Assembly: GCF_036689815.1 (NCBI RefSeq)
Contig: NZ_JBAHUR010000014.1
Location: 1-64,000, forward strand
From: Magnetovibrio sp. PR-2
GTDB taxonomy: Bacteria > Pseudomonadota > Alphaproteobacteria > Rhodospirillales > Magnetovibrionaceae
DNA length: 64,000 nucleotides
Direction of reading: 5' to 3'
The position numbers and the translations under genes were made by a program. Shown here in pieces: positions 5,511 to 35,867 of this stretch (the first letter of the stretch is position 1; every line of letters starts with the position of its first letter). Under the pieces are notes generated by a model, which ran no database searches, was not told the DNA's origin, and worked only from the letters and a program-made list of their open reading frames with translations.

Positions 5511-8500
5511 ATGGACGGTTTAACGGATCAGAAAAATCTGGACGCCCGCCTAGAGGGTCATTTGGACACAAGTGTCGAAAACTTGAAATTGGTCAAGCTC
5601 GACGATGCCCAGGACGGTCAACTGGTTTTGCCCGGTGACGAAGCGTTTCTGGCGGCTGACTTCGTGCGCGATGGCTATGACTTGATTTTGGACGGCGGTT
5701 CCGACGTTGGCCTCATCTTTATCCCCGAATACTTTTCCAGCGATACACCCCCGGCCCTAAATTTGGGCGATGCGGGCATGATTTCTGCGGATTTGGCCGG
5801 AAAACTGGCCGGTCCCATGGCGCCTGCGCAAACCGCTCAGATCGGGATTGGGGCTCAACCGACGGTCACAACGGACACCATTGGTGAATCAATCGGCTCC
5901 GTCAACGATATTACCGGGACGGTCAACGCCACCCGCGTCGACGGCACCCAAGTGACCTTGGGCCAGGGCGATCCGATTTTTCAAGGCGATGTCATCGAAA
6001 CGGCGGATGCCAGCAACGTCGGTATTGTGTTTGCGGATGACACGCTGTTCTCGCTCGAAGCGGGCGGACGCATGGTCATGGATGAAATGGTCTATGACCC
6101 GGACACGCAAACGGGGGTGTTTGAAACCACCGTGGTCAAGGGCGTGTTCTCGTTTGTCAGCGGCCAATCGGCTAAGGTCGACCCCGACGCTATGGTCATC
6201 AACACCCCAAAAACCACCATCGGTATTCGCGGCACGTCCGGCATCGGCAAAACCGGTGTCGAAGAAGAAACGGCCGACGCCGAAGGTCTTGCCGTTTTTG
6301 CCGCCGGTACGACGACAGGTGATGGGGCTGAACTGGCCCAAGCGCCCGGCCCGGTGGACTCGTTCGTTTTGATGCCCGATCCCGGCTCCAAATTCGTTGG
6401 TGAAGTGGTTATTGGCGGCAAAACTGTGAACACGCCGTTTGGCTCTGTGAACATCGGTGACGGCTTTGTGAGTGATCCTGTGCCGTTGAGCCCGGCGGAA
6501 GTGTTGAGCACCTTCGGCGGTGCCATGGTGAACCTGACCAACATTGCAACCAAGCATGCCGAAAACAAAACGCAGCAAGCTGAAAACGAAGCCCGCGAAG
6601 CTCAAGACCAAGCCGAGCAACAAAAACAAGAAGCCGAACAAGTCGAAGAACAAGCAGCTGACGCCGAAGCCGAAGCTGCCCAAGCCGAAGCAGATGCCGA
6701 GGCTGCTCAGGCCGAGGCCGAAGCCGCCCAAGCCGAAGCCGAAGCCCTAAAAGCCGCGGCAGAAGCCGAACAAGACGCCGCCGCAAAAGCTGAAGCCGAA
6801 GCCGCCGCCGCCGAAGCCGAAGCCCGCGCAGCCGAAGCCGAAGTCCAAGCCCAAGCCGAAGCCGAAGCCGCGCAACAAAAGGCGCAAGAAGCCGAAGCCT
6901 TGAAAGCCGAAGCCCAGGCGAAATTCGAACAAGCTCAACTGGCTGAACAGCAGGCACAAGAAGCGTTCCAACAACAAGCCCAGGCCAAATCGTTTCAAGA
7001 AGCTGTGGTCAAAGATGCTGCACTGCAAAAGCAGATGTTTACGCAGTTTGAACAAACAGGTGAAATTGCCCCCGAACTTGAACAACAGTTTGTGGAACCC
7101 GCTGAAGCCTCAGGCGAACAAGACGGGCCAAACAACCCACAAGATGGCGGTCCCGATGCTGGCGACCAAGCCGCTCAGGGGGCATTTGAAGAGGCCATAG
7201 CGTCTGGCGGTTCTGAGGAAGATGCCTTTGAAGCCGCAGCCCGTGCCGCTATGGAGGCGGGAGGCGACGAATACGACCCCAACGACCCTGCTGTTCTGGC
7301 GGCCCGCGCGGCTTACGAAGAAGCACTAGCCAATGGCGCAACCCCGGAAGAAGCTATGCTGGCTGCGCAAAAAGCGGTTGATCAATTCGAGGTTGAACAA
7401 CAGCTTCAGGCCAACGCGACAGCTTCTGAGGCGGACAAAACATCTGAAGAGGATGAGGAAAAGACAGAAGAAGACGGTGAAAACGCGGGCCAAAATGAAG
7501 GTGATACCGGTTCTGACAGCAATTCAGATTTCTTCTCGAGCTTTGGTGAAACGGAATCTGAAACTGAAGAAAACACCTTTGCCAGCGGAACGCAATCGAG
7601 TGGAAGTAGCGCAGGGGCAAACTCCAGTTCAGCTGAGGAGGACACCACAAACAAAACCAAAGTCTCCACGGATGACGATTATGTGGAAACCGACTTCGAC
7701 CAAACCTATACGATGCCCGATGGCGGCCACTACCAAAAAGGCGGGGACGCCAACACCAACTATTATTTCCACTGGGAAGGTTATTCTGCAGGTGGCGATT
7801 ACACCATTGAAGACGATGCTGGGGGCTCAAACCAGATGTCGCTCGACACCATGGTGGATATGAAGTTTAAGATTACTGCGGACACGACAACGTCCGGTTC
7901 TATGATCGTGTGGGGAAACTATTCTGGCAGTGGGAACAGTTTTGCGGAAATTTCCTACACCGGCATTTCAAAATTCTTGTTGTCCAACGTCACCGTGAAC
8001 AGTTTCGGCACCAATACGTACGCAACTGAAGAAGGCGGAGACATTCTTAAGCTTTCTGCCCTTTCTGCGGGACAAACCGCTTATGGCATTGCTTTAACGG
8101 ATGGCGCTGAATCCTACACGATCACTGCGGGGGACCAAATCCTCTTTGCCAACGGGGGTGACGATGATCTGACGTTTGCTCAGACGGGCGATGGCGGCAA
8201 AATTTTGGGGAATGGCGGCGCGGATGACTTTTTCATCAACGAATTCACGGATGGGTGGGAGTTTTTAGGCGGATCGGATTCGTCGAATGACACGTTTACA
8301 TACTCACACGCCTCTACCAACGTGACCGATTCTCTGTATGTCTACTTCGACGATGAAGAGGTCTATGTTCGCGACAGCGGATCCACCAAGCACAATAAAC
8401 TTGAAATTGACAAGTACGACGACTTCACGGCGTCGAACCAAGCCGATCAAATCCATGTTTATGGCGGGTCCTACAACAAAATCTATGGCGGCACCGGTGA

Positions 8501-33504: not shown

Positions 33505-33534
33505 TTGCGCTTGTCAAATGTTCATGTTATGTTC
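33505..33534 (+). promoter_or_regulatory. SOS promoter with LexA box
   Basis: GTTC-ATGTTAT-GTTC at 33520-33534 is a perfect alphaproteobacterial LexA operator (GTTC-N7-GTTC). It overlaps a plausible sigma70 promoter, TTGCGC (33505) and TATGTT (33528) spaced 17 bp, 38 bp before the first umuD-like start. This gives DNA-damage control of the umuD/umuC unit. Confidence 0.85.
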
Positions 33535-33572: not shown

Positions 33573-34169
33573 ATGTTATCCCATCTTTTTGGTCCCAATA
33601 CGTCTCGTGCGCGCCGGGCCTATGCGCCCTCGACCTGCGGCTCAGAACGTGGCCCCAACGTCAGCTTGCAAGAGGAGCCCATGGTGGCCCCCGCAGGCGG
33701 TGAGGGGGCGCGCTGGGTGTCTTTGGGCGACGGTCAGGTGTGGCAAACCAACACGCGGACCAAGCGTGACTTGCCCATTGTCGCAAGCCCCGTACATGCG
33801 GGCTTCCCGTCCCCGGCGGAGGATTACATCGAAGGCTCGTTGGATCTGAACCGCCATTTGGTGCGCCACCCCGCAGCGACGTTCATCGTGCGGGTGCAAG
33901 GGGAATCCATGACGGGCGCAGGTATATATCCGGGCGACTTGTTGGTGGTGGATCGCAGTCTTGAGCCCCGGGACGGTCATGTGGTCATTGCCGTGGTGGA
34001 CGGCGACTTGACGGTGAAGCGCCTGAAGGGCCGTCCAGGCCTTTGGCATTTGGAGGCCGAGCATCCGGATTTCCCCACCATCCCCATGCCCACAGGCGAA
34101 GATGGGGACGGGGAGACCTCTGCCATTTGGGGCGTGGTCACCAATGCGGTACGAGACTTGGTGGCGTGA
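33573..34169 (+). CDS. umuD: UmuD-type S24 peptidase (Pol V accessory subunit)
   Basis: 198 aa from ATG 33573 (SD AGAGGA). An internal ATG at 33681 has a better SD (AAGAGGAG) and gives 162 aa, nearer the usual UmuD size; both may be used. The self-cleavage site Ala-Gly (HAGFPSPAEDYIEG), catalytic Ser in VQGESMTGAGIYPGD and catalytic Lys in DGDLTVKRLKG are all present. RecA-stimulated self-cleavage would yield UmuD', which joins UmuC for translesion synthesis. A LexA box lies upstream, and umuC follows after 387 bp of unusual repeats. Confidence 0.9.
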   Translation: MLSHLFGPNTSRARRAYAPSTCGSERGPNVSLQEEPMVAPAGGEGARWVSLGDGQVWQTNTRTKRDLPIVASPVHAGFPSPAEDYIEGSLDLNRHLVRHPAATFIVRVQGESMTGAGIYPGDLLVVDRSLEPRDGHVVIAVVDGDLTVKRLKGRPGLWHLEAEHPDFPTIPMPTGEDGDGETSAIWGVVTNAVRDLVA

Positions 34170-34204
34170 GGAAAAGGTTCTGACGTGTGTATTGAGCAGA
34201 TGCC

Positions 34205-34330
34205 CCCCTCACCCCGACCCTCTCCCCCCTATGGGTGGAGAGGGGGATATGGCTGGGGTGCGAACAAAGACCCTCTCCCAGCGGGAGAGGGAGGGACCCG
34301 ACGTGTTAACGGCGGGAGGGTGAGGGAGAG
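34205..34330. repeat. CT/GA-rich inverted dispersed repeat
   Basis: Alternating blocks of the CCCTCACCCCGACCCTCTCC type and their inverted counterparts (GGAGAGGGGG; GAGGGTGAGGGAGAG) form nested hairpins in the umuD-umuC gap. Such elements are common interspersed repeats in proteobacteria. Noncoding; could attenuate or stabilise the mRNA. Confidence 0.65.
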
Positions 34331-34336
34331 TTGGAT

Positions 34337-34556
34337 ATGACAAAGCTCTTCGCCTTAATCGACTGCAACAACTTCTATGCGTCCTGTGCCTTAGCGAAGC
34401 GGCGTAGCCGCGTGCGTTTTTTTATGCGTGAGCAGGGGAACAGGCCATGACCAAGCTGTTTGCCCTCATTGACTGCAACAACTTCTATGCGTCCTGTGCC
34501 TTAGCGAAGCGGCGTAGCCGCGTGCGTTTTTTTATGCGTGAGCAGGGGAACAGGCC
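34337..34556 (+). repeat. Two 110-bp tandem copies of the umuC 5' end with mini-ORFs
   Basis: Units start at 34337 and 34447, and umuC itself starts at 34557: exact 110-bp spacing. Each unit begins with the first ~50 bp of umuC (MTKLFALIDCNNFYASC), then departs into a palindrome-bearing 60-bp tail (GCGGC-GTA-GCCGC, followed by seven T) and ends GGGGAACAGGCC before the next ATG. Each makes a 37-codon ORF whose TGA overlaps the next ATG (ATGA). Units 2 and 3 are identical over the first 50 bp; unit 1 differs at synonymous positions. The three starts are thus arranged for translational coupling. Confidence 0.9.
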
Positions 34557-35867
34557 ATGACCAAGCTGTTTGCCCTCATTGACTGCAACAACTTCTATGC
34601 GTCCTGCGAACGCGTATTTCGCCCCGACCTGGAAGGCAAACCCGTGGCCGTGCTGTCCAACAACGACGGCTGCGTGGTGGCGCGTTCGGCGGAGATCAAA
34701 ACCATCGGCATTCCCATGGGGGCGCCGTATTTTAAAGTGCGCCGGGTTTTAGACGACCACAAGGCGTTCGTGTTTTCGTCGAACTATGAGCTTTACGGCG
34801 ATATGTCGTCGCGTGTCATGTCGGTGCTCAGCCGCTTTAGCCCAGACGTGGAAATCTATTCCATCGATGAAGCGTTTTTGGGTCTCGACGGGTTCGAAGA
34901 TTGGGACTTGGAAACGTATGCCCGCGAACTGCGCGAAAAGGTGAAAAAATGGACCGGCATTCCCGTGTCCGTCGGCATCGCACCCACCAAGACGCTGGCC
35001 AAGATTGCCGCCGAGCGGGTGAAGAAGGACAAACTGCCCGGCGGCGTCAATGTCTTGCGCACCCGCGATACGATTGTAGACGCACTGGCCAATACGCCCG
35101 TGGGCGACATTTGGGGTGTCGGGCGGCGCTGGGGCAAGCGCTTCCCGTCGTTGGGGGTATACACGGCACTCGATTTCGCCAACCAGTCCGAACACTGGGT
35201 GCGCAAAAAAATGGGTGTGACCGGCGCACGCACGCAGCTGGAGCTGCAAGGCCAGGTGTGTTTCGATATCGACAATCAACCGACGGACAGAAAATCGTGT
35301 GTGTCGTCCCGGTCGTTCGCCAAAACGGTGGAGGATTTGGATCAGTTGAAAGACGCGGTGGCGACTTTTGCAGCGCGCGCGGGTGAACGCTTGCGCCAAG
35401 GCGGTTTGGTGGCGGCGCAACTGAACGCGTTTGCGGTCACCGACAGGCACAACCCCCACGCCGCCCAATATCACGCCAGCGCGACAGTGGCGCTGCCCAA
35501 TCCGTCGAACCTGACACTCGATTTGACCCGGGCGGCGTTGCAGGCCTTTGTGAAGGCTTACCGTCCGGGCTTTCGTTATAAAAAAGCGGGGGTGATGTTG
35601 CTCGAGCTCGCACCTGCAGGGGAAATGCAGCCGACTTTGTTTGCGCGCTCAGAAATGGATCAGGAAAAGGCCCTGCGCCTGCAAGATGCGCTGGACCATC
35701 TGAACGGCGCGCAAAGGGGTGGGCGCGATCTGGTGCGCGTCGGCGCGGGCGGCATTGAGCCTGAAACCAAAACTGGGGCGAAAAAAGGCTGGCATTTGCG
35801 CCGCAATTACAAATCGCCGCGCTACACCACCCAGTGGAGCGAGCTGGCAACCGTTCAAGCTTGTTAA
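34557..35867 (+). CDS. umuC: DNA polymerase V catalytic subunit UmuC
   Basis: 436 aa. Y-family palm motifs LFALIDCNNFYASC (catalytic Asp) and YSIDEAFLGLDG (Asp-Glu) are intact, as is the SNNDGCVVARS loop. The helix-hairpin-helix region is at about aa 180-215, the little finger at about 235-345, and the UmuC-type C-terminal tail (NYKSPRYTTQWSEL) is complete. With UmuD' it carries out error-prone lesion bypass. Start chosen at the third ATG, where the full frame begins; two truncated copies of its 5' end precede it. SOS control comes from the LexA box before umuD. Confidence 0.95.
   Translation: MTKLFALIDCNNFYASCERVFRPDLEGKPVAVLSNNDGCVVARSAEIKTIGIPMGAPYFKVRRVLDDHKAFVFSSNYELYGDMSSRVMSVLSRFSPDVEIYSIDEAFLGLDGFEDWDLETYARELREKVKKWTGIPVSVGIAPTKTLAKIAAERVKKDKLPGGVNVLRTRDTIVDALANTPVGDIWGVGRRWGKRFPSLGVYTALDFANQSEHWVRKKMGVTGARTQLELQGQVCFDIDNQPTDRKSCVSSRSFAKTVEDLDQLKDAVATFAARAGERLRQGGLVAAQLNAFAVTDRHNPHAAQYHASATVALPNPSNLTLDLTRAALQAFVKAYRPGFRYKKAGVMLLELAPAGEMQPTLFARSEMDQEKALRLQDALDHLNGAQRGGRDLVRVGAGGIEPETKTGAKKGWHLRRNYKSPRYTTQWSELATVQAC

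Follow-up and report, generated by a model that had tools for sequence, protein, structure and literature searches.

The umuC gene of Magnetovibrio sp. PR-2 is preceded by two tandem 110-bp units, each beginning with a copy of the gene's own 5' end. This array appears to have been left by a process that repeatedly duplicates gene ends or inserts at them, and not to have been shaped for the control of umuC. It is probably one case of a recurring type of mutational or insertional scar, here called a hairpin-tagged gene-end repeat, of which umuC supplies a protein-gene example. That example combines two alleles that have diverged with an exactly placed breakpoint, and it has its hairpin and its polarity in common with cases at tRNA genes of relatives. 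The analysis covered a window of 64,000 nucleotides (positions 1 to 64,000 of contig NZ_JBAHUR010000014.1), in which the following features define the locus; the basis of each assignment is given in brackets.

33520..33534, minus strand: LexA-box-like GAACN7GAAC (GTTCATGTTATGTTC on the plus strand), upstream of umuD (exact pattern match)
33681..34169, plus strand: umuD (S24 peptidase), start codon uncertain (Pfam PF00717, E 4e-25; ORF)
34202..34333, no strand assigned: dispersed repeat of about 130 bp with inverted ends, between umuD and copy 1 (repeat comparison)
34337..34360, plus strand: A segment, the first 24 nt of copy 1, differing from copies 2 and 3 at six synonymous sites (copy alignment)
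34337..34450, plus strand: 37-codon mini-ORF 1, ending in an ATGA overlap (ORF list)
34361..34386, plus strand: 26-nt core GACTGCAACAACTTCTATGCGTCCTG, the same in all three copies and the putative recombination zone (copy comparison)
34387..34446, plus strand: 60-nt tail of unit 1, with palindrome, T7 and RBS-like AGGGGA (sequence)
34394..34416, plus strand: P palindrome GCGAAGCGGCGTAGCCGCGTGCG of unit 1 (dispersed family)
34447..34556, plus strand: unit 2, made of B segment, core and tail (repeat analysis)
34447..34560, plus strand: 37-codon mini-ORF 2, ending in an ATGA overlap (ORF list)
34504..34526, plus strand: P palindrome of unit 2 (dispersed family)
34557..35867, plus strand: umuC, intact, 436 aa with IMS, IMS_C and DUF4113 (ORF and Pfam domains)

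Three umuC starts, at 34337, 34447 and 34557, follow one another at an exact 110-bp spacing (TRF score 498) and each encodes MTKLFALIDCNNFYASC, as the original prediction had described; its range stopped at 34606, and umuC extends to 35867. The two 37-codon ORFs that it placed ahead of umuC, with palindrome-containing tails and ATGA overlaps, are likewise present in the sequence. There is no difference between copies 2 and 3 in the 50 nt that they share before copy 3 continues into umuC, and both 60-nt tails are identical. Copy 1 departs from copy 2 at unit positions 6, 12, 15, 19, 21 and 24 only. All six differences thus lie in the opening 24 nt of the 110-nt unit, a placement with a chance of 6e-5, and all are synonymous, an outcome with a frequency of 2.5e-5 among random sets of six substitutions. 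These differences bear out the view of copy 1 as something other than a simple assembly repeat.

Only one umuC occurs in the whole genome. The bodies of umuD and umuC show a similar degree of divergence from relatives, so that nothing marks the whole of umuC as foreign, and a foreign umuC body was rejected as a candidate. The case for the LexA-box-like site upstream of umuD is made by its position and not by match count, as LexA-type patterns with at most one mismatch occur 56 times in the window, which is chance level. The palindromic repeat of about 130 bp at 34202-34333 is present in 4 copies in this genome (3 besides this one). Short-period tandem repeats also occur elsewhere in the window, at 199-393 (12/24/36-nt) and at 6652-6875 (6/21/27-nt).

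The array was seen at no other umuC locus examined. A second umuC start was found in none of the four genomes of the same genus in which umuC was located, where umuC mostly directly follows umuD, and in no fetched umuC locus besides the window among GTDB genomes and IMG/VR (160 through umuC searches). A degenerate pattern for tandem umuC starts at short range gave 0 hits in 84,980 species genomes, a set that may omit the genome studied here. Phage and plasmid collections did not contain the array and show just the conserved umuC start; the exact core had two matches in IMG/VR, one of which (L039) is an ordinary umuC, and the tail sequence had no match there. Many of the IMG/VR contigs at loci L180-L225 start or stop near a umuC gene. 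Rfam returned nothing convincing across the locus.

On the assembled sequence, the structure of the array is A and core, tail and B, core, tail and B, core and the remainder of umuC, with its breakpoint at the 26-nt core. This layout follows from the confinement of all six differences to the first 24 nt while core and tail are identical, and it points to a recombination between two diverged umuC alleles inside the core. A and B differ at 6 of 24 positions, and umuC differs from the umuC of the nearest relative at 3-10 positions per 30 nt. Because the divergence is about that seen between species of the genus, A and B most likely derive from two functional umuC alleles. The second identical unit would then be due to unequal crossing-over between cores. 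The expansion that the original prediction had offered as an alternative therefore stands to this extent, with two identical units that fit unequal crossing-over or template switching, whereas the proposed regulatory tuning lacks support (see below). The number of the two identical units is as assembled, and the junctions from A-core to tail and from tail to B-core imply at least one real unit.

Dispersal of the tail as a whole was not observed and is limited to its palindrome. The P pattern GCGAAGC[GA]GCNNAGC[CT]GCGTGCG has one further occurrence in the same genome and occurs in several relatives; P is also found in a few genomes outside the family but is largely limited to it. The stem changes on both sides with pairing kept, G-C being replaced by A-T in 4 copies, C-G by T-A in one copy and G-C by C-G in one copy. 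The copies at umuC may be old or atypical members, given that most of the outer stem and the usual flanks have been lost. In L013, of the same genus, what reads by eye as a P copy lacking 16 nt from its interior lies 24 nt ahead of umuC. P sites are also found without an adjacent gene-end duplication (L002, L234, L243, L253), and at L238 and L246, near position 1500, P sits within another dispersed repeat (CGTCATTGCGAG...GAAGCAATCCAG). No IMG/VR contig contains P, and no recombinase was linked to it.

The same anatomy recurs at tRNA genes. At four other loci, a complete tRNA gene and a truncated copy of its 3' end stand on either side of P, with the same polarity and at a spacing of 90-129 bp.

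L237: tRNA-Ala(CGC), P and truncated 3' end, 93 bp
L249: tRNA-Ala(CGC), P and truncated 3' end, 94 bp
L229: tRNA-Ala(CGC), P and truncated 3' end, 129 bp
L244: tRNA-Val(GAC), P and truncated 3' end, 90 bp

Read outward from the gene, the order is gene end, leader, P, truncated gene end and flank, and umuC is arranged likewise. The sequence beyond P was compared by script with that on the other side of P; cross-site controls gave a median of 6, a 95% value of 9 and a maximum of 60, the few high values arising because some of the compared windows are homologous. At 5/5 sites (the umuC array and L229, L237, L249 and L244), the copy begins 6-7 nt past the P core, is 19-54 nt long and stands 90-129 bp from its counterpart across P. 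A pattern for repeated tRNA-Ala 3' ends yielded two more genomes, from another family of the order, with units of 89 and 83 bp, in which a different GC-rich hairpin precedes each truncated end and a diverged copy closes the array. In these arrays (L292:1369-1700 and L293:1430-1742), tRNA-Ala(CGC) is followed by repeated truncated 3' ends, leader and GC-rich hairpin, and the leaders contain AACCCCTGA, the reverse complement of the tRNA T-stem strand TCAGGGGTT.

Further sites are less complete. P adjoins apparent truncated tRNA ends at L233 and L235, with no full gene nearby. In L282:5136-13540, P precedes a copied tRNA-Met 3' end with its terminator, 8.2 kb from the intact tRNA-Met, and ordinary metabolic genes occupy the interval. 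In L283:3990-4200, P lies inside a broken tRNA-Met, adjoining island-like DNA with a 790-aa ORF. No integrase that would indicate a full-length element behind P at tRNA ends was recognised in L282-L285, where ORFs were inspected by eye. Repeats of part of a tRNA 3' end have been described before, and to our knowledge their origin is not settled.

We infer both the order of events and the part played by the hairpin in making the duplication. The unit would join the hairpin P and a short leader (I) to a gene-end copy. Placed against the end of a gene, it would leave that gene complete, and the original end, now displaced, would survive as a truncated copy beyond P. At umuC, the targeted end would be the 5' end. 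Copy 1, and with it A, would be the displaced start of another umuC allele, and A is accordingly read, by eye, as the putative earlier start; it would have been joined to a B-type unit by allelic recombination in the 26-nt core, and the 110-bp unit would have been doubled by unequal crossing-over between identical cores. Insertion, allele exchange and unequal crossing-over together would account for the synonymous A segment and, in most arrays, for the terminal copy and the foreign flank. In a broader and more tentative reading, the varied short hairpins would take part in an undescribed process by which tRNA genes and protein genes alike gain, at their ends, units of hairpin and copied end and yet stay intact, the units behaving like gene-less elements of 80-130 bp.

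Plain tandem duplication, by slippage or template switching at the hairpin and with no mobile or inserted unit, is possible though somewhat doubtful as the origin of the array. Polymerase would stall at P and restart about 80 nt back in umuC, and A would have been altered later. The identity of the two units agrees with this, as does the presence of a hairpin at every junction, even where the hairpin sequences differ (G120, G127), and L237 has exactly the predicted form, with P at each unit's end. However, such duplication predicts hairpin and native flank at the end of an array, whereas the arrays at umuC, L249, L229, L292 and L293 end in a gene-end copy and another flank, and the synonymous-only differences in A require an outside allele. 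Pure template switching therefore accounts well for L237 and for the differing hairpins and less well for the terminal copies.

A remnant of a tyrosine-recombinase integrative element targeting umuC is unlikely. The gene is a known target of islands with XerC/XerD-type recombinases (PMC4458695) and of integrase-bearing resistance units (PMC9769766), the 19-26-nt direct repeats with the gene kept intact resemble attL/attR, and in L283 P adjoins a truncated tRNA-Met end with island-like DNA close by. Nonetheless, the ICEPan insertions in umuC lie at residues 37 and 88 (PMC4458695) and the one here at 17, while core and hairpin vary between targets with no common core. No integrase was recognised among the neighbouring ORFs at 32.0-37.5 kb or among the listed ORFs of L282-L285, and P is absent from IMG/VR. 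The sole listed Phage_integrase match on the contig lies at 87.6 kb. An integrase-borne element is thus the less likely source. An assembly artefact is most improbable: copies 2 and 3 are indeed identical and no close strain is available for comparison, but copy 1 differs at six sites, reads must contain the core-tail and tail-B junctions, and the same architecture appears at tRNA genes in independent assemblies.

A regulatory role has little in its favour either. The original prediction had suggested that the two units could tune the output of error-prone Pol V, which in its explicit form means a regulatory leader in which two coupled, translated 37-codon ORFs and an attenuator-like hairpin with T7 set the level of UmuC. 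Both ORFs are open and overlapped by the next start through ATGA, terminator-like matches occur at both tails, and A retains coding sequence. However, the same open frame to an ATGA overlap arises in 34% of shuffled tails, and the overlap itself follows from a period of 110 bp, equal to 2 modulo 3, together with the ATGA start. The tail folds no better than its shuffles (z -0.27), terminator-like matches are no more frequent than by chance, 5 nt separate the terminator-like hairpin from its T-run, and the arrangement is conserved in no relative. On these grounds the tuning proposal was not upheld, and we regard the leader as very unlikely. A leader-peptide attenuator needs a conserved leader and an alternative fold, and the umuC array has neither, as judged from relatives and from the z of -0.27. 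That the changes in A are synonymous only could mean that mini-ORF 1 is still translated, which would count against the view of the array as a scar. Under that preferred view, the effect of the array on Pol V is probably small, because the last copy keeps the RBS-like sequence and the full umuC. Coupled mini-ORFs ahead of a gene therefore need not mean regulation. The junction of hairpin, 6-7 nt and gene-end copy is concrete enough to support counts across genomes as well as laboratory tests.

Several known systems share part of this anatomy. The rtT repeats at E. coli tyrT are tandem units bearing part of the tRNA-Tyr 3' end. Like the umuC array, they are placed at a gene end, each with a truncated copy of that end. 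RtT RNA is mentioned in PMC4986893, and Rfam gave no RtT match at our locus. In contrast to those repeats, the umuC array occupies the 5' end of a protein gene rather than a tRNA 3' end (the tRNA cases being those in relatives), and it has a dispersed hairpin within a unit that, at 110 bp, is the shorter of the two. REP and BIME palindromic elements are mobilised by RAYT (Y1) transposases. P resembles them as a short, intergenic, imperfect hairpin with compensatory changes, low copy number and sometimes tandem placement, but by eye it has no GTAG/GGAG foot. A RAYT link appears inconsistent. In the genomes compared, Y1 transposases do not seem to track P: two are present in the genome studied here and none in the P-bearing draft genomes G003 and G009, the latter 85% complete. 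We know of no link between REP or BIME elements and gene-end duplication. Rickettsia palindromic elements, of about 100-150 bp, extend proteins in frame. Like P, they are palindromes in genes and tRNA genes of Alphaproteobacteria, whereas at the umuC array the truncated copy remains separate from the complete gene. Finally, the ICEPan umuDC island and the tmexCD-toprJ integrative units resemble the array in their umuC target and in their partial 5' umuC fragments. The umuC-targeted islands are kilobase-sized and carry recombinases (PMC4458695), while the unit of the array is 110 bp long, has no genes and lies at codon 17; a trait of umuC-targeted integrative elements that the array does share is the 26-nt core as a direct repeat on both sides, with umuC intact.
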